Source: Phycisphaerae bacterium | Lineage (GTDB): Bacteria > Planctomycetota > Phycisphaerae > UBA1845 > PWPN01 | Reading direction: 5' to 3' | Assembly: GCA_018003015.1 (NCBI GenBank) | Contig: JAGNEZ010000009.1 | Coordinates: forward strand, 62,001 to 126,000 | DNA: 64,000 nucleotides | Shown: piece by piece, positions 2,321 to 61,941 of the stretch | How the letters are laid out: each line of letters begins with the position of its first letter | Position numbering within the stretch: the first letter of the stretch is position 1 | Translations under genes and position numbers: made by a program | Notes under the pieces: generated by a model | What the model was told of the DNA's origin: nothing | Databases searched by the model: none | The model's input: the letters and a program-made list of their open reading frames with translations, nothing else

Positions 2321-4144
2321 TCACTGCGGGTGTTCGGTCGGAGTGGCGTGGACAGCCCGAGCGACGAGGTCTTCGTACTGCTGGCGAAGATAGGCACGAT
2401 CGGGGCCGCTGGCGATGTGGTCCCACGGGAGAATCTCGCTCACCGGGCGCTCGCGGTGGGCATAGAAGCCCGGATCGAGGCCGGTCTGCTCGAACGCCTT
2501 TTGCCAGAGGTCAAATCGGAAGCACTCGTCCCACCCGTCCATGCGGGCGCCGAGCCGATAGGCGGCCTCGATCACCCCGCTCAGCCGGCGATCGCCGCGA
2601 GACAGCACGCCCTCGAGAATCGAGCGCTCGACCTTGTGGGTCTTGATGCGGACGGCCGAGCGGAACTGCTCGGAAGTGCGGCGGAGCAGGATCCGAGCCT
2701 CGTGGAAGTAATCCGCGTGAGGCTGGGCAGCCCACTGAAGGGGTGTATGCGGCTTGGGGATGAGCCAACCCACACTGGCCGTGATCGAAGCCGGCCCCCC
2801 CCCGACCGCCCGCTTGGCGAGGCTCAGCTTCCGTGACAGGTGGAAGATGTCGGCGATGTCTTGCTCGCGCTCGCCGGGGAAGCCGCACATGAAGTAGAGT
2901 TTCACCGAGTTCCAGCCGGCCGCGTACGCCTGTTTCAGGCCGGCGAACAGGTCCTCGTCGGTCACCTTCTTGCGGATCGCGCTGCGTAGCCGCGAGCTGG
3001 CCGCTTCGACCGCCACGGTGAGGCCGCTCTTGCGGACGCTGGATACCAGCCAAGGGATATCCGAGAGCATCTTGTCGACCCGGAGCGAGGGGACCGACAG
3101 ACTCACGTGCCGTTCATGGAACTGTTTGTTGAGCCGCCCGGCCAGTTCCGCCAAGTGCGGGTAGTCGGCGGTATTGAGGCTCAGCAAGCCGATTTCCTCG
3201 CAGCCGGTCGCCTCCCAGGCGTGTTCGGCGATTCCCAGGATACGATCGACGCTGCGAGCGCGAACCGGGCGTTTCGTGTAGCCTGCATGGCAGAAGCGGC
3301 AGCGCTGGGGGCAGCCGCGCATGATCTCAATGCTAACGCGATCGTGAACGACCTCGGTGTGAGCGACCAGCGGCCGGAGCGGCACGAAGGCATCCTCGAA
3401 GTCGGGCGTCTGACAGCAAGCGATGTGTTGAGGTGGCGTGAAGCCGGCCGGACACCGACCACGCGGGCGGAATGCAGCCATGGTGCCGTCGGTGTGGTAA
3501 TCCACATCGTACAGCGCCGGGGCGTAGATCCACTCGAACTTCCGGGCCATCTCCCTCACCATGTCCGACCGGCTGGCACCCTCGCGTTTCATGCGGCGGT
3601 AGAGCTCGACGATGGCCGCCATGCTGTGCTCGCCTTCGCCGATCACCACCAGATCGACGAAATCGGCGATCGGCTCGGGGTTATCCGCCTGGGGTCCGCC
3701 GACGATGACCAACGGATCCTGTTCTTCCCGCTCCTCGCCACGCAGGGGAATGCCGGCCAGATCAAGGAGCAGCAGCAGGTTGGTGTATCCCAACTCGTAG
3801 TTGAGCGAGACGGCGAAGATGTGGGCATTGCGGGCGGGCTGGCGTGTGTCCCAGGTGAACAGTGGGATATCGCGCCGCCGCATGATCTGTTCGGCATCGC
3901 CCCAGGGCGCGTAGACCCGCTCGGCACAGACTCCCGGCATCTGATTGCACAGGGCGTAGAGGATCTGGCAACCGAGGTGGCTCATGCCGATGGAGTAGGT
4001 GTCCGGGAATGCCAGCGCGACGCGTACGTCCGCCCGTTCCCAGTCGCCTGGGCGCACAGGCTGGTTCCACTCATGGCCGATGTATTGTCCCGGCTGCCGG
4101 ACAAAAGGGAGAAGCTCTTCGCTGATCCGTTGACGGAGGCTCAT
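2321..4144 (-). CDS. B12-binding-type radical SAM protein, TIGR03960-like
   Basis: A 607-residue radical SAM protein. Residues about 30-215 form a cobalamin-binding-like Rossmann domain (FPDTYSIGMSHLGCQILY, VIGEGEH). The radical SAM core follows, with the cluster motif CPQRCRFC (C278, C282, C285) and then HAGYTKRPVR. The arrangement matches TIGR03960, whose members often sit with or are fused to the DUF2344 protein TIGR03936. No such partner is visible here. The family's reaction is unknown. It converges on the TIGR03790 gene with a 20-nt gap. Confidence 0.82.
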   Translation of the reverse strand: MSLRQRISEELLPFVRQPGQYIGHEWNQPVRPGDWERADVRVALAFPDTYSIGMSHLGCQILYALCNQMPGVCAERVYAPWGDAEQIMRRRDIPLFTWDTRQPARNAHIFAVSLNYELGYTNLLLLLDLAGIPLRGEEREEQDPLVIVGGPQADNPEPIADFVDLVVIGEGEHSMAAIVELYRRMKREGASRSDMVREMARKFEWIYAPALYDVDYHTDGTMAAFRPRGRCPAGFTPPQHIACCQTPDFEDAFVPLRPLVAHTEVVHDRVSIEIMRGCPQRCRFCHAGYTKRPVRARSVDRILGIAEHAWEATGCEEIGLLSLNTADYPHLAELAGRLNKQFHERHVSLSVPSLRVDKMLSDIPWLVSSVRKSGLTVAVEAASSRLRSAIRKKVTDEDLFAGLKQAYAAGWNSVKLYFMCGFPGEREQDIADIFHLSRKLSLAKRAVGGGPASITASVGWLIPKPHTPLQWAAQPHADYFHEARILLRRTSEQFRSAVRIKTHKVERSILEGVLSRGDRRLSGVIEAAYRLGARMDGWDECFRFDLWQKAFEQTGLDPGFYAHRERPVSEILPWDHIASGPDRAYLRQQYEDLVARAVHATPTEHPQ

Positions 4145-4248
4145 GCGGGATCAAAGGCTGAACGGAGGAGGGTGGCAGGCCGTCCCTGTGCGCAAGGTTG
4201 AGTGTGGGGGAGGATCGGGCGTGAAGCGACCGAGCCCGTTCCGCCGTT

Positions 4249-4476
4249 TCACCGCTGGCGATACACGATCCGCCCGCGTCCCAGATCGTAGGGGGAGACT
4301 TCCACGGTCACGATGTCACCGGGAACGATGCGGATGAAGTTCTTCCGCATCTTGCCGGCAATGTGGGCAAGCACTTCGTGCTTGACTCCGCCGGTCTCTG
4401 CCTCGACGATGAACTGGGCGTTGGGCAGGGCCTTGATTACCTTGGCCTCGAACTGAATACTCTGGGCCTGGGCCAC
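4249..4476 (-). CDS. infA: Translation initiation factor IF-1
   Basis: A 75-residue IF-1, the single OB-fold factor that occupies the A site of the 30S subunit during initiation. The sequence runs from [20 protein letters not shown] through [13 protein letters not shown] to [15 protein letters not shown], the family's typical C-terminus; usual length is about 72. The reading frame is open further upstream, but GTG at 4476 is chosen because GAGGA lies about 9 nt before it and the length then fits. It lies between the radical SAM gene and the divergent rsmB. Confidence 0.92.
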
Positions 4477-55767: not shown

Positions 55768-56529
55768 CCGCTCGTCGGGCAACCTGAGCGTAGCTCACGG
55801 CCAACTTGTCGGCCCACCCCACGCATGCTCTGGGCCTGCAAGTAATCCCGCCCCTCGGTCCGACGGCAATCCGTCAAGCAGGCACATTCCCATCGGCACG
55901 GCGAACAGATCAGCACCCCAGCCGTCGGCGAAAGAAAGAAAGTGCCGCCCCCCGTCCCCGATGTGGGTTGTCTCCGCCGTCCCTGGCGGGATTGATGGCA
56001 TGAAGGTCGGTGCCAACAATGTGGACCAGACAAACCGAAAACCATCCGGCCCAGCGGTCGAGGTACCTGCCGCAGTGATGCTGGCAAGCTCGTGCGATGG
56101 GCGAAAAGGGCCGAGCAGAAGGGGTAACTACCCGAGCCCAAGCGGGGCATCCACCCGGCATAGCCCCAGACCGGCCTTCAGAACCCGTTGACAGGCCACT
56201 TGTCCCGATGATGTCACACGAGCGTGCATCGGCTGGCCCCGCCTTACAGATGGACGCCGCTTCAGAAACACCGCCAGCCCCCGCGGAAGGGTCAACAAAC
56301 TGGGCTGCAACGAGCTGGCAGGGCTTGACGTCGAACCGCAACGGGGGATAATGTGCGGGTAGCGTTTGTGGGCCCCATGGGTGGTCGAATGCGGGCAGTC
56401 CGCTCTCACCTTCCCTTTCGGTGCACTTGCCAAGGCTCAACAGACACTTGGTTGGAGTTGCTTGAGACCTTCTGCGAGCCCATTTCGCCATAGGATTATG
56501 GCCTGTCCCTGAACCGGAGAATGTTGCCC
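55768..56529. other. Long non-coding interval
   Basis: About 760 bases with no supportable gene. A 208-codon minus-strand frame exists but shows no domain, ribosome site or codon pattern like its neighbours. Confidence 0.5.
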
Positions 56530-56916
56530 ATGTCATTCGAGGACAAAACGATCACCTGTGTGGACTGCGGCCAGCCCTTCGTGCATTCCGCCGAAGACCA
56601 AGCCCGCTACGCTGAGCGTGGTTTCACCAACGAACCCAAGCGTTGCCGGGATTGCCGCGAGAAGCGCAAGAAGACTGGCGGTGCCGGACGCGGGGGAGCC
56701 CGCAGGACCGGCAGTGGCTCGCCCGGGAATGAGGCCTTCGGCAACCGCGGCGGCGGCGATCGGCCCTTCAGTGGCGGACGCGGTAGCACAGGCGCGCCCC
56801 GCGAGTCATTCGAGGCCGTCTGTGCCGAGTGCGGGGCAACCACAACGGTGCCTTTCAAGCCCACACAGGGCCGCCCGGTCTACTGCCGCGATTGCTTCCG
56901 TGCCAAGCGCGGGTGA
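56530..56916 (+). CDS. Double zinc-ribbon protein (CxxC-x17-CxxC type)
   Basis: A 128-residue protein. The N-terminal ribbon is CVDC-x25-CRDC (ITCVDCGQPFVHSAEDQARY, then NEPKRCRDC), as in the zinc-ribbon proteins found across bacteria. A Gly/Arg-rich flexible linker spans about residues 45-90. The C-terminal domain is exactly CAEC-x17-CRDC, the CxxC-x17-CxxC domain. The basic, RGG-like linker suggests contact with nucleic acid. ATG at 56530 lies 10 nt after GGAG, better spaced than the ATG at 56521. Confidence 0.82.
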   Translation: MSFEDKTITCVDCGQPFVHSAEDQARYAERGFTNEPKRCRDCREKRKKTGGAGRGGARRTGSGSPGNEAFGNRGGGDRPFSGGRGSTGAPRESFEAVCAECGATTTVPFKPTQGRPVYCRDCFRAKRG

Positions 56917-57124: not shown

Positions 57125-58012
57125 TCAACTCGGCGTGAGTGTGGCCTCGGTAGCGGTTGGGATACGTTCCGGACGCGGGCAGGCGGCCAGCCCCGAGGTC
57201 TGAACGGCGCTGCTCAGCTTGATCGCCTCGCAACGGGTACACTCCAGGCAACGGATACAGCGGGAGTTGTTGAGGTTCCTGGCTGGAAGGACGCCGTATT
57301 TGCACATCTTGTCGCAGGCCCCGCAGCTTCGGCACGCGTCGCTCTCGAACCGGAGGACCAACAGGGAGAACCGGTTGAACAAGCCGAAGATGGCCCCCAG
57401 AGGGCACAGCAGGGTGCACCAGGGTCGCCACTTGATGAACATGGCCGCAAGGACGAGCCCCAGAAGGGTCAACTTGGCGGTGCTTGGCCAGGCAATGCGG
57501 GTGTGGGCAATGGCCGCCTCCACCACGCTGGGTACGGCACCCTCCAGCGCCCCCGCCGGGCACAGCCGGCAGAAGAAGAGAGCGTGCTCCTCACCGTACA
57601 GGAATGGTGCAACCAGCACCAGGCCGATGAGCACCACGTACCGGAACAGACCTGTCCAGGCGGGGAGACGGAACTTTCGAGTCGGCACGCGGCCGATCAG
57701 ATCCTGCAGGAATCCGAAGGGACAGACCCAGCCGCAGACCGCCCCACCAATCAACGCCCCAACCAACACCAGCGTGCCGACGGCCAGGAACGGGAACACG
57801 TGCAAGGCGCTGAAGTTGGCGATGACGCCTACCGGGCAAGCGAAGGTGGCTAGCGGGCAGGAATAGCAGTGAAATACCGGCGAGCACACGTTGTGCATCC
57901 GGAACAAGAGCGGATCGAGCCAGACCAGCAGAAAGGCAGCCTGAATCCAGGCTCGTCGGCGGCTCCAGCGTCTTGCGAAGGAATCCTCGGATGGGTTGGC
58001 CATGGCCACCAT
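57125..58012 (-). CDS. NapH/NosR-like polyferredoxin membrane protein
   Basis: A 295-residue inner-membrane iron-sulfur protein with about five helices. It has the paired cysteine motifs of the family between helices (CYSCPLATFACPVG, CGWVCPFGFLQD, CRLCPAGALEG, CTLLCPLGAIFGLF). A soluble C-terminal domain with two cluster motifs follows: CRSCGACDKMCKYGV and CIRCLECTRC. Such proteins pass electrons from the membrane to a periplasmic or cytoplasmic partner. It is the last gene of the selD-selC cluster, 18 nt after the preceding gene. ATG at 58012 follows AAAGGTC. The partner is unknown. Confidence 0.85.
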   Translation of the reverse strand: MVAMANPSEDSFARRWSRRRAWIQAAFLLVWLDPLLFRMHNVCSPVFHCYSCPLATFACPVGVIANFSALHVFPFLAVGTLVLVGALIGGAVCGWVCPFGFLQDLIGRVPTRKFRLPAWTGLFRYVVLIGLVLVAPFLYGEEHALFFCRLCPAGALEGAVPSVVEAAIAHTRIAWPSTAKLTLLGLVLAAMFIKWRPWCTLLCPLGAIFGLFNRFSLLVLRFESDACRSCGACDKMCKYGVLPARNLNNSRCIRCLECTRCEAIKLSSAVQTSGLAACPRPERIPTATEATLTPS

Positions 58013-58030: not shown

Positions 58031-58390
58031 TCAGGTAGGGCACAAAGAGGGCATGTCGCCGAAGTAGGTCCGCCGGATGAGGCCCTTGTCCTCTCCCGAA
58101 CGGACCAGGGTCAGGCCACCAACGGTCACGTCTCTCACCATGACCGGCTCGCAGAGCGTCTCCTTGATCCAGACCTTCTCCTTGCGCGGCGGAGGCGCAG
58201 GCGGCTGCGGCTGGGCACCAAATATCGACAGACCCGGAATCTTCGGCCTGGCTGGAACAGGCACCTGGATCGTGATCTCCTCCTGCACTTCTACCGTTCT
58301 GGCATGCAGGCGGACGCCATAGGACACGGCCGCTGCACCCAGGATGACGAGGAGCACCGGAGGTATCAGTCTTCGAACCGCACTCAGCAT
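58031..58390 (-). CDS. Small membrane-anchored protein of the selenium cluster
   Basis: A 119-residue protein with an N-terminal membrane helix (LIPPVLLVILGAAAVSYGV, about residues 8-26), a Pro-rich linker (PQPPAPPPRKEK) and a short C-terminal domain (ETLCEPVMVRDVTVGGLTLV). It would lie mostly outside the membrane. ATG at 58390 follows GAGGGTG and lies only 24 nt after the CCA end of selC. The two C-terminal cysteines are far apart and form no CxxC motif. I recognise no family. Confidence 0.65.
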   Translation of the reverse strand: MLSAVRRLIPPVLLVILGAAAVSYGVRLHARTVEVQEEITIQVPVPARPKIPGLSIFGAQPQPPAPPPRKEKVWIKETLCEPVMVRDVTVGGLTLVRSGEDKGLIRRTYFGDMPSLCPT

Positions 58391-58414: not shown

Positions 58415-58511
58415 TGGCGGAGGTGAATGGGAATCGAACCCACCCAGGACCCTCATCGAGCCCCACACTGGTTTTGAAGACCAGGAGCACCACCAGGCAC
58501 CTGTCACCTCC
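58415..58511 (-). tRNA. selC: Selenocysteine tRNA, tRNA-Sec(UCA)
   Basis: A 97-nt tRNA including an encoded CCA (58417-58415). The acceptor stem has eight pairs, GGAGGTGA (58511-58504) with TCACCTCC (58426-58419), one more than ordinary tRNAs. The anticodon arm CTGGT-CTTCAAA-ACCAG gives anticodon UCA, which reads UGA. A long variable arm (TGTGGGGCTCGATGAGGGTC) and the T arm GTGGG-TTCGATT-CCCAT complete it. Layout and variable-arm sequence are close to E. coli selC. It lies between selD (26 nt) and a membrane-protein gene (24 nt), so it must be cut out of a mixed mRNA/tRNA transcript unless it has its own promoter. Confidence 0.95.
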
Positions 58512-58537: not shown

Positions 58538-60136
58538 TCAACCCTTCGAATGGGCATTATACCACACCATGAGCGGCGAGCCGCCAAAGGAAATCGCCAT
58601 CCAGGCGGCTTCATCGATTTCATCCTGGCAGAAGCCCTTCTCTCGGGCTTTCTTCAGGTGCATTTTCAGGCAGGGTTCACAGCGGGCCATGACCGACAAG
58701 GCAATCGCAATCGCCTGCTTGGTGTGAGCATCGAGAGCACCCGGCTGGTTCACAGTCTTGAGAAAATCCTGGTACCTTCGCTGAGTCTCGCTCACACCGC
58801 GGTCGCCGGCTGCCATGCCGCCGACGGCGTCGCTGCAACAGGGCACTTCATCACCGTGTGAAGACATGCTCGGATGCTCCTCGATTCGGGTCACGGGCCA
58901 CTCCACCCGCTTGCCAGCAGTCGATGGCACTGGAAGACACCTCTGACCTGTCGTCCGAACGGTCACCCTTCCGCTGCCCGGCGTCACCGCCCTGCCGATG
59001 ACGGCCGCGCACCCCATCCCGGCGTCACGCAAACGGGCCACGAATCGGGACGCCTCGTTCTCGGGCAGAGCGATGAGCAGTCCGCCCGAGGTCTGCGGGT
59101 CGAAGCACAGGTCAAGCATCACCGGCTCCAAACCGTCAGCCGAGACATGGTCGCCACTGGATTCCCGGTTCCGCTCGACGCCGCCGGGCAGGATGCCCTG
59201 GACCAGGCATTCCAGCACACCGGGCAACAGCGGCAGATCGTCCCACACGACCTCAACATCCACCTCGCTGGCGGCAGCCATGGCCGTCAGGTGACCCATC
59301 AGTCCGAAGCCGGTGATATCCGTACAGGCGTGGGCACCAGACGTGAACATGAGTTCCGCGGCCGCCTTGTTGAGCGTGGTCATGGATCGTGCAGCCGCCT
59401 CCAGGGCCCCCGGTGGGCAGCGATCGATCTGGGCGGCAAAAGCGATGACGCCCGTACCCAGGGCCTTGGTCAGGACAAGTGCGTCACCCGGGCGCACACC
59501 CGCGTTGGCGACAATCCGCCTGGGATCTATCAGACCGGTCACGGCGAAGCCCGCCTTGATCTCTCGATCCTGCACGCTGTGCCCACCAATGACAGCCACA
59601 CCGGCCTCGGCCATCTTGTCGATCCCCCCGCGCAGGACGTCGTGCAGGACGGAATCGGGCACTTCGCGAATCGGGAAGCCGACGATAGACAAAGCGGTGA
59701 TCGGCTCGCCTCCCATGGCGTAGACATCGCTCACCGAGTTGGCCGCCGCGATCTGGCCAAAGAGATAGGGGTCGTCCACCGAGGGAGTGAAGACGTCGAC
59801 GGTCTGAACCAGGGCCTGCTCGTTTCCGAGCGAGTACACGCCTGCGTCGTCGCCGGCGGGAACACCGATGAGAACCTTGGGATCCTCGGACACCGGAAGT
59901 CCCTGCAACACCCTGCGGAGCGCCGCCTGGTCGATCTTTGACGCACAGCCGGCCTTCTCGACCAAATGGGTCAGCCGCACCGGGCCTCCCGTCGACTGCA
60001 CCCGCTCGCCGGCACAGAGACACACATCCTTCTGGCGCAGCAGGTCACACGGGCACGGCGTCTTGGGATCGCAAATGCAGTGCCCGAGGCGGATGGACCG
60101 CTCCATGACTCGGCGGCGCTTCTCAGTCTGTTTCAC
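58538..60136 (-). CDS. selD: Selenide, water dikinase fused to an AhpD-like (CMD) domain
   Basis: A 532-residue protein. Residues about 50-405 are SelD, which makes selenophosphate from selenide and ATP. The catalytic pair is C64 and K67 in KAGCASKI (Cys rather than selenocysteine), and GVPAGDDAGVYSLGNEQALV and DITGFGLMGHLTAM carry metal and ATP residues. Before it stands a Cys-rich leader: GHCICDPKTPCPCD and DVCLCAGERV. After a linker, residues about 445-530 are a carboxymuconolactone-decarboxylase/AhpD-like domain with C486-E-P-C489-xxx-H493, the AhpD redox motif. GTG at 60136 lies 7 nt after a -10-like box; ATG at 60106 is the alternative start. Confidence 0.88.
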   Translation of the reverse strand: MKQTEKRRRVMERSIRLGHCICDPKTPCPCDLLRQKDVCLCAGERVQSTGGPVRLTHLVEKAGCASKIDQAALRRVLQGLPVSEDPKVLIGVPAGDDAGVYSLGNEQALVQTVDVFTPSVDDPYLFGQIAAANSVSDVYAMGGEPITALSIVGFPIREVPDSVLHDVLRGGIDKMAEAGVAVIGGHSVQDREIKAGFAVTGLIDPRRIVANAGVRPGDALVLTKALGTGVIAFAAQIDRCPPGALEAAARSMTTLNKAAAELMFTSGAHACTDITGFGLMGHLTAMAAASEVDVEVVWDDLPLLPGVLECLVQGILPGGVERNRESSGDHVSADGLEPVMLDLCFDPQTSGGLLIALPENEASRFVARLRDAGMGCAAVIGRAVTPGSGRVTVRTTGQRCLPVPSTAGKRVEWPVTRIEEHPSMSSHGDEVPCCSDAVGGMAAGDRGVSETQRRYQDFLKTVNQPGALDAHTKQAIAIALSVMARCEPCLKMHLKKAREKGFCQDEIDEAAWMAISFGGSPLMVWYNAHSKG

Positions 60137-61020: not shown

Positions 61021-61941
61021 ATGAAGTCTCACATCGCAGACCGCAGGACGATCCCGACAGATGGCCGCCCAAGCGTGTCCGGCCGGACCGCGTTCACGCT
61101 GATCGAAGTGCTGGTCGTGGTAGCCATCATTGCCTTGCTGCTGGCGATTCTCCTGCCTTCCCTGTCGGGAGCCAGGGCCCAGGCCAGGGCGATCCTCTGC
61201 CTCAACAACCTGAGCCACTTTGGCAAATCGGCCAGCGCCTACGCCCATGACCACAGGGGCTTCATCCCCCGCGACTACTACTACGGGCAATACGATTCTC
61301 GCGACGACAGCAAAGGCGGCCACGGCCTCCCGCATGTGCTCGTCCCTGAGGTCATGTCCGGCTATCTGGGTGGACCCAAGTATCCGCTGATCCAGTTCGA
61401 GCAGGACCCGCACAACCAGAGCCGGGACAAGAGGCTGGCTCCCATCTTCGCCCGCATACCGACCCTGCAATGCCCGGTATTCCCGCAAGGAGGGGACACG
61501 GCCAGCGATTTCGCGGGCAAACCGATCAGGGAACAGCCGTACGATTACGTGGCCAACGCCTTCAACTTCGAGGAGGAGAGAATCAACAAGCGCGGCAGTA
61601 ACCAGTACTTCAACTCTCAGGGCTTGACCATGATCTCTCGGGTTCCCACCACCAGTCGCCTGATCTACATCACCGAGGCTAATGCGGATCTGCCTTTCGA
61701 CATGTTCGGATGGCATGACATGTTCCAACCTGAGCATCTCTGGTGGGGAGCGGATGCCCGCATGATCAACGACTACCGGCACGGCACCGGAGGTCTCAAA
61801 CAACCTGGCCGTGGAGTAGCCATGGCCCTCTTCTTCGATTCTCACGCCGAGAAGATGATGTTCAAGCAGATGACCATCAACCGGTTCACGAACAACTACA
61901 CCAGCCGGGAAATCCCCCTTCCAAGGGAAGTCGGCAGCTGA
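61021..61941 (+). CDS. Prepilin-type secreted protein (planctomycete pseudopilin-like family)
   Basis: A 306-residue protein with a type IV prepilin signal: a basic leader ending in GRTA, then FTLIEVLVVVAIIALLLAIL, with the cleavage-site glycine replaced by an Ala/Gly context and the conserved glutamate five residues into the helix. The rest is a globular domain (LCLNNLSHFGKSASAYAHDH, CPVFPQGGD, YDYVANAFN) ending in ALFFDSHAEKM. The ending matches the H-x9-DG-type tail of the very abundant planctomycete family. These proteins are exported and assembled or anchored by a type II/IV secretion-like system. ATG at 61021 follows GGGAGGAACCTGGGT. Confidence 0.87.
   Translation: MKSHIADRRTIPTDGRPSVSGRTAFTLIEVLVVVAIIALLLAILLPSLSGARAQARAILCLNNLSHFGKSASAYAHDHRGFIPRDYYYGQYDSRDDSKGGHGLPHVLVPEVMSGYLGGPKYPLIQFEQDPHNQSRDKRLAPIFARIPTLQCPVFPQGGDTASDFAGKPIREQPYDYVANAFNFEEERINKRGSNQYFNSQGLTMISRVPTTSRLIYITEANADLPFDMFGWHDMFQPEHLWWGADARMINDYRHGTGGLKQPGRGVAMALFFDSHAEKMMFKQMTINRFTNNYTSREIPLPREVGS

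Follow-up and report, generated by a model that had tools for sequence, protein, structure and literature searches.

Many uncultured planctomycete-type bacteria carry a selenophosphate synthetase (SelD) with two extra cysteine-rich parts, a six-Cys module at the N-terminus and a carboxymuconolactone decarboxylase (CMD)/AhpD-type domain at the C-terminus. The fusion is real and widespread, and its architecture and gene linkage are firm. Tentatively, and at somewhat less than an even chance, we read the protein as a selenophosphate synthetase of Cys type that has thiol arms of its own and probably receives electrons from a NapH-like membrane protein. Here we describe the fusion found in the window (the whole stretch of 64,000 nucleotides that was analysed), its distribution and gene neighbourhood, and the readings of its function that these allow.

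Architecture and distribution of the fusion

The gene and the parts of its product are as follows.

58538..60136, minus strand: fusion gene (532 aa), comprising six-Cys module, SelD, linker with Cys-Cys pair (CC) and CMD domain
60005..60082, minus strand: six-Cys motif H19-C20-x-C22-x5-C28-P-C30-x8-C39-x-C41-A-G-E44, invariant in 52/52 fusions
58952..59983, minus strand: SelD domain, residues 52-395 (TIGR00476 and PRK00943; fold match 2yye, 3u0o)
59936-59947, minus strand: SelD catalytic C64 to K67
58793..58903, minus strand: flexible linker, residues 412-448 (pLDDT below 50)
58865..58882, minus strand: possible internal start, in-frame ATG at codon 424 with GAGGAG upstream (putative)
58835-58840, minus strand: vicinal C433-C434 in the linker, CC in 52/52 fusions
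58568..58789, minus strand: CMD/AhpD-type domain, residues 450-523 (PF02627)
58658-58681, minus strand: C486-E-P-C489-x3-H493 of the CMD domain

The frame (58541-60136, minus strand) is uninterrupted, with its stop at 58538-58540, and opens with a GTG at 60136, a start that is supported by the fusions of relatives, whose proteins open at the same position (MKNLEKRRRVM, MINMERRKRVM). The SelD part scores well above the curated cut-off of TIGR00476 (366.2 bits over residues 54-361, against 125) and above that of PRK00943 (319.7 bits, against 299), and the C-terminal part exceeds the gathering cut-off of PF02627 (59.9 bits over residues 450-523, against 23). The original prediction, that one frame joins a SelD with C64 and K67 to a CMD domain with CEPC-x3-H, is borne out by these matches; it was incomplete in that it lacked the six-Cys module, the CC pair of the linker and the adjoining tRNA-Sec. 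In the AlphaFold2 model of the protein, made from the 52 aligned rows described below (mean pLDDT 86.9), the N-terminal stretch is folded, the SelD part takes the SelD fold with 2yye and 3u0o as its closest PDB matches, the linker has low pLDDT and the C-terminal domain is helical.

A set of 61 whole genomes (the window's own and 60 relatives) contains the fusion in nine, six times complete (G000, G001, G004, G010, G014, G016) and three times cut by contig ends (G007, G011, G012). A contig scan that used the CMD part as its query retained 79 loci, 51 of them complete fusion frames from Planctomycetota, Verrucomicrobiota, Acidobacteriota, Sumerlaeota and Omnitrophota; the contigs of five of the 51 (L060, L061, L068, L072, L078) had also been hit in the whole genomes. 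The 28 other loci (fragments, free CMD frames and unrelated CMD domains) were excluded from the alignment, the 52 rows of which are the window's fusion and the 51 scan fusions. Eleven Cys residues (the six of the N-terminal module, C64, the CC pair and the two of the CxxC), together with K67 and H493, are invariant in 52/52 fusions. The CxxC, on whose conservation the original prediction depended, is thus kept in every aligned row. That assembly or a frame error has joined two adjacent genes was raised at the outset as well, and is now a negligible prospect: the CMD part can exist alone, as a free CC-CMD frame without SelD in one record (L069), but the identical join recurs in 51 further complete frames, spread over five phyla, and in 9/61 whole genomes, which refutes this explanation.

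The active site of the fused SelD is GCASK, with a single Cys, and the catalytic C64 and K67 are present in 52/52 rows. The catalytic codon is TGC or TGT in 51/51 fusions, in contrast to TGA in 18/22 unfused SelDs from the same order. In a maximum likelihood tree of 74 SelD domains (52 fused and 22 unfused), all 52 fused SelDs are grouped together by one branch (support 100/99); since the unfused SelDs, found by tblastn, all come from the window's order, the tree describes a distinct subfamily rather than a rooted single origin. The fusion protein is very probably the working selenophosphate synthetase of its genome, to judge by its being the only SelD match there, with SelA and SelB over cut-off elsewhere in the same genome. 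In two relatives without a SelD match (G003, G009) SelA is absent too, and a search for SelA in the fusion carrier G012, whose genome is 77% complete, gave no match. Formate dehydrogenase alpha was searched for in the window's genome and not found.

The known SelD fusions, in the available excerpts of PMC2398784 and PMC4561486, are Ndh-SelD (with an NADH dehydrogenase-like partner, COG1252) and NifS-SelD. According to the excerpted text of Mariotti et al. 2015 (PMC4561486), prokaryotic SelD extensions are N-terminal in all cases seen, and the extended SelDs are of Cys type with one exception. Ndh-SelD, as described in these excerpts, resembles the present fusion in combining SelD with a redox module, in having a Cys-type SelD and in occurring in Sec-using bacteria, but its partner is N-terminal and of flavin type and its SelD itself has a CxxC, whereas here the six-Cys module precedes, and the CMD domain follows, a SelD with a single catalytic Cys. 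NifS-SelD, likewise from the excerpts, shares the physical coupling of SelD to a thiol-chemistry partner. Pfam searches of the fusion protein gave no match to an NADH dehydrogenase-like domain or to a cysteine desulfurase domain. Two of the relatives (L011 in G046 and L021 in G027) have SelDs with a catalytic Cys whose open frames run to about 740-750 aa; they branch together and are probably the known Ndh-SelD fusion. The SelD-CMD fusion is not named in the excerpts available from reviews of 2022 and 2026 (PMC9312934, PMC13188914) or from PMC4210487, and no paper on it was found in the open-licence PMC literature, supplements excluded; an earlier mention elsewhere is possible.

The cysteine-rich parts

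In the excerpted description of M. tuberculosis AhpD (PMC3141380), the proton relay consists of Glu118, Cys130, His132, Cys133 and His137, and the CxxC is a thioredoxin-like active site. The CMD domain of the fusions keeps the CxxC and a His four residues on (C486, C489, H493) in 52/52. The position of the relay Glu, which precedes the first Cys by 12 residues, holds Gln, Arg or Lys in 50/52 (Gln in the window) and Glu in 2/52, while that of His132, before the second Cys, holds Pro in 51 of the 52 and His in one, so that three of the five relay residues are retained and two replaced. The replacement of the relay Glu and the middle His weakens the AhpD peroxidase reading of the original prediction; going by these residues, a role as dithiol relay or carrier, or in selenium handover, would be likelier for the CMD domain than peroxidase activity. 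The wider suggestion of a redox or thiol role for the fused domain stands up better, with CxxC, CC and N-terminal Cys in 52/52 and an Fe-S membrane gene that co-occurs with the fusion. AhpD/CMD thiol proteins and AhpD-domain selenoproteins (NF041537, NF045649) share with the fusion the CMD core, the CxxC and the following His, and the models of the two selenoprotein families match its CMD part weakly. The fusion differs from these proteins in the replaced relay Glu and middle His, in the attachment of the CMD domain to SelD and in having Cys rather than Sec. The window's genome has two further CMD domains, in one frame on contig C92.

A protective or reactivating function, in which the CMD dithiol leaves the selenium substrate untouched and serves only to maintain C64 in its reduced state or to clear peroxides from around selenide, would compensate for the Cys in place of Sec. 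This fits the observation that the fused SelDs are all Cys-type and their sister SelDs mostly Sec-type, and also the thioredoxin-like nature of the AhpD CxxC (excerpts of PMC3141380). We nevertheless regard it as unlikely: the peroxidase relay is incomplete (Glu in 2/52, Pro at the His132 position in 51/52), and the six-Cys module, the CC pair and the NapH-like partner would be left unexplained.

The N-terminal module (residues 19-44, HC-x-C-x5-CPC-x8-C-x-CAGE) keeps all six Cys and the AGE in 52/52 fusions. It has no Pfam family match and no sequence match in the PDB, and Foldseek returned no match for its separate structure model, which has a pLDDT of about 90 over residues 10-40. A search with the module through a phylum sample of 392 genomes found it in 15, in all of which it reads on into SelD, and among the 392 genomes it was not seen without SelD. 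The module is a putative binding site for a metal or an Fe-S cluster. The ferredoxin-thioredoxin reductase catalytic chain (PF02943) has the CPC-x8-CxC spacing of the second half of the motif (7bzk segment), but CPC-x16-CPC where the module has CxC-x5-CPC; homology was rejected, with an hhalign probability of only 3.9% and no Pfam, PDB-sequence or Foldseek match, and this reductase is retained as an analogy only. A ferredoxin-thioredoxin reductase catalytic chain of Cys type is also encoded in the window's genome (PF02943; L155, contig C94). This was considered as a selenoprotein and set aside, the one TGA inside the match being most simply a normal stop.

The least probable of the functional readings makes the six-Cys module a zinc site with a structural role and has the CMD domain, as an oligomerising helical fold, do no more than assemble SelD into a larger complex, its cysteines being a relic. 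CMD proteins are commonly oligomeric, the N-terminal module resembles a small metal-binding fold, and in a more distant branch, sampled from the phylum, the final His of the CMD domain is lost in 6/12 readable loci. The CxxC is nonetheless retained in that branch, being present in 12/12 loci long enough (with the His kept in six and lost in six), and CxxC and CC are both found in 52/52 fusions; the cysteines are unlikely to be a relic, because a relic would drift.

The linker between SelD and the CMD domain is predicted to be disordered (AlphaFold2 pLDDT <50, residues 412-448), and its CC pair would be suited to act as a swinging arm. Just before the CC lies the in-frame ATG of codon 424, where initiation may additionally yield the CC-CMD part as a separate 109-aa protein. 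An in-frame ATG 2-9 codons before the CC occurs in 18/51 fusions, and ten of the 18 have a Shine-Dalgarno-like site, compared with 26/478 in-frame ATGs within SelD (Fisher p 3e-8, kinship ignored); the combination is seen in one group of branches, to which the window's gene belongs. As a general trait of the fusions an internal start was rejected, since the ATG near the CC (18/51) and its Shine-Dalgarno-like site (10) are limited to some branches. The free CC-CMD protein of the L069 record, from a planctomycete (3527-4267, MSKQPKESACC...), has no SelD in the same frame.

The adjoining tRNA-Sec, CPT-tailed and NapH-like genes

Three features follow the fusion gene on the same strand.

58415..58511, minus strand: tRNA-Sec, anticodon TCA, directly downstream of the fusion (ARAGORN; RF01852, 72.5 bits, cut-off 47)
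58031..58390, minus strand: small CPT-tailed protein, 119 aa, with homologues between tRNA-Sec and NapH-like gene
57125..58012, minus strand: NapH-like membrane 4Fe-4S protein, 295 aa (PF12801, 51.8 bits)

The CPT-tailed protein has an N-terminal membrane helix (assigned by eye), a Pro-rich middle and the conserved end GGL..G.I.RTY.G..PSLCPT, and gave no family match in profile searches. From the positive-inside rule we take it to face the periplasm, a predicted topology that makes it a poor fit to a simple cytosolic relay. The NapH-like protein shares Fer4_5 motifs and cytosolic 4Fe-4S motifs with the NapH/MauN ferredoxin-type proteins (TIGR02163), but differs from them in scoring far under the family cut-off (55.8 bits, against 213) and in having tRNA-Sec as its neighbour, with no nap genes noted.

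Among the nine fusion loci of the relatives, tRNA-Sec follows the fusion in seven, and in the other two the contig ends within the fusion gene. More widely, only 21 of the 48 complete fusions with enough downstream sequence have a tRNA-Sec starting ≤400 nt away, and 18/62 scan loci (L060-L121) have a NapH-like gene downstream, in the orientation of the fusion. At E ≤ 1e-40, the NapH-like gene is found in 8/9 fusion genomes vs 0/52 other relatives (Fisher p 3e-9, not corrected for kinship); the one carrier without a match, G011, has a genome 55% complete, and in G004, G007 and G010 the gene is on a contig other than that of the fusion. The phylum sample has matches in 20/392 genomes, made up of 8/15 fusion carriers and 12/377 others (Fisher p 5e-8, again not corrected for kinship); fusion carriers account for all five matches at E ≤ 1e-110. 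Sixteen fusion genomes were chosen, seven non-planctomycete and nine planctomycete without a NapH-like gene beside the fusion; 13 of them have the gene, ten at E ≤ 1e-118, and three (those of L113, L117 and L118) gave no match. The NapH-like gene was thus not found in these 3/16 or, at E ≤ 1e-40, in 7/15 fusion genomes of the phylum sample, which means that it is not essential, or has diverged, or was missed in incomplete bins. In 13 NapH-like loci viewed closely, tRNA-Sec is near in six and the CPT-tailed protein in 11; when separate from the fusion, the NapH-like gene is often placed behind tRNA-Sec (6/13). These counts indicate that the trio of tRNA-Sec, CPT-tailed protein and NapH-like gene accompanies the selenium system also where the fusion has another location. 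Five loci (L187, L189, L191, L192, L193) have all three as a conserved trio away from the fusion.

PADLOC found no match to a defence system. The window also encodes, at 56521-56913 (plus strand), a small protein that carries a pair of treble-clef zinc motifs (PF13451, PF23477) and that, among the loci searched, accompanies the NapH-like gene only within the window's own genus, and, at 61021-61941 (plus strand), a prepilin-type protein with the N-terminal methylation-like motif FTLIEVLVVVAIIALLLAILLPSL, presumably typical of planctomycetes.

Possible routes of selenium to SelD

The conserved Cys modules and the co-occurring NapH-like gene are, taken together, most simply read as serving selenium reduction and handover to a Cys-type SelD. 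In the mechanism we tentatively prefer, the SelD part would use C64 and K67 to convert selenide and ATP to selenophosphate, while the CEPC dithiol of the CMD domain and the vicinal CC of the linker would form a relay that reduces thiol-bound selenium (e.g. a selenotrisulfide or perselenide), the selenide then being passed to the SelD active site. The six-Cys module, probably a metal- or Fe-S-binding part, would be the point of electron entry or a docking site for selenium, with the NapH-like membrane Fe-S protein and its small CPT-tailed partner as the probable source of the electrons. The architecture, its conservation, the Cys in place of Sec and the linkage and co-occurrence of the genes are observations; the metal binding, the direction of electron flow and the handover to SelD are inferred. 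Against this mechanism count the N-terminal module's lack of any family, sequence or fold match, the fusion genomes in which the NapH-like gene was not found, the limited share of fusions with tRNA-Sec close by (21/48) and the predicted periplasmic side of the CPT-tailed protein.

Rather improbable, in our estimate, is that the Cys clusters act as a selenium carrier, holding selenium as S-Se-S and releasing it to SelD, with electrons from a general supply (glutathione/thioredoxin) and the NapH-like protein serving another selenium step such as selenium-oxyanion reduction at the membrane. The vicinal CC and CxC motifs would suit soft-ligand handover, and in several genomes the NapH-like gene is linked to tRNA-Sec and not to the fusion; homology to a known selenium-binding protein, however, was not found. 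The thiol-arm mechanism can also be extended to a new selenium-assimilation unit, in which SelD would reduce its own substrate via its Cys modules, the NapH-like and CPT-tailed proteins would form a dedicated electron conduit in the membrane, encoded behind tRNA-Sec, and one of the Cys modules would be a novel domain that binds a metal or an Fe-S cluster. We consider this fuller proposal somewhat unlikely.

Free selenide is toxic and easily oxidised, and its route to SelD in the cell is still debated. A SelD joined to conserved dithiols, and the gene pair co-occurring with it, make the question of selenide delivery testable with one polypeptide and one knockout. The added thiol modules and the contrast between Sec and Cys also hint at the way in which a selenium-metabolising enzyme can manage without selenium in its active site.
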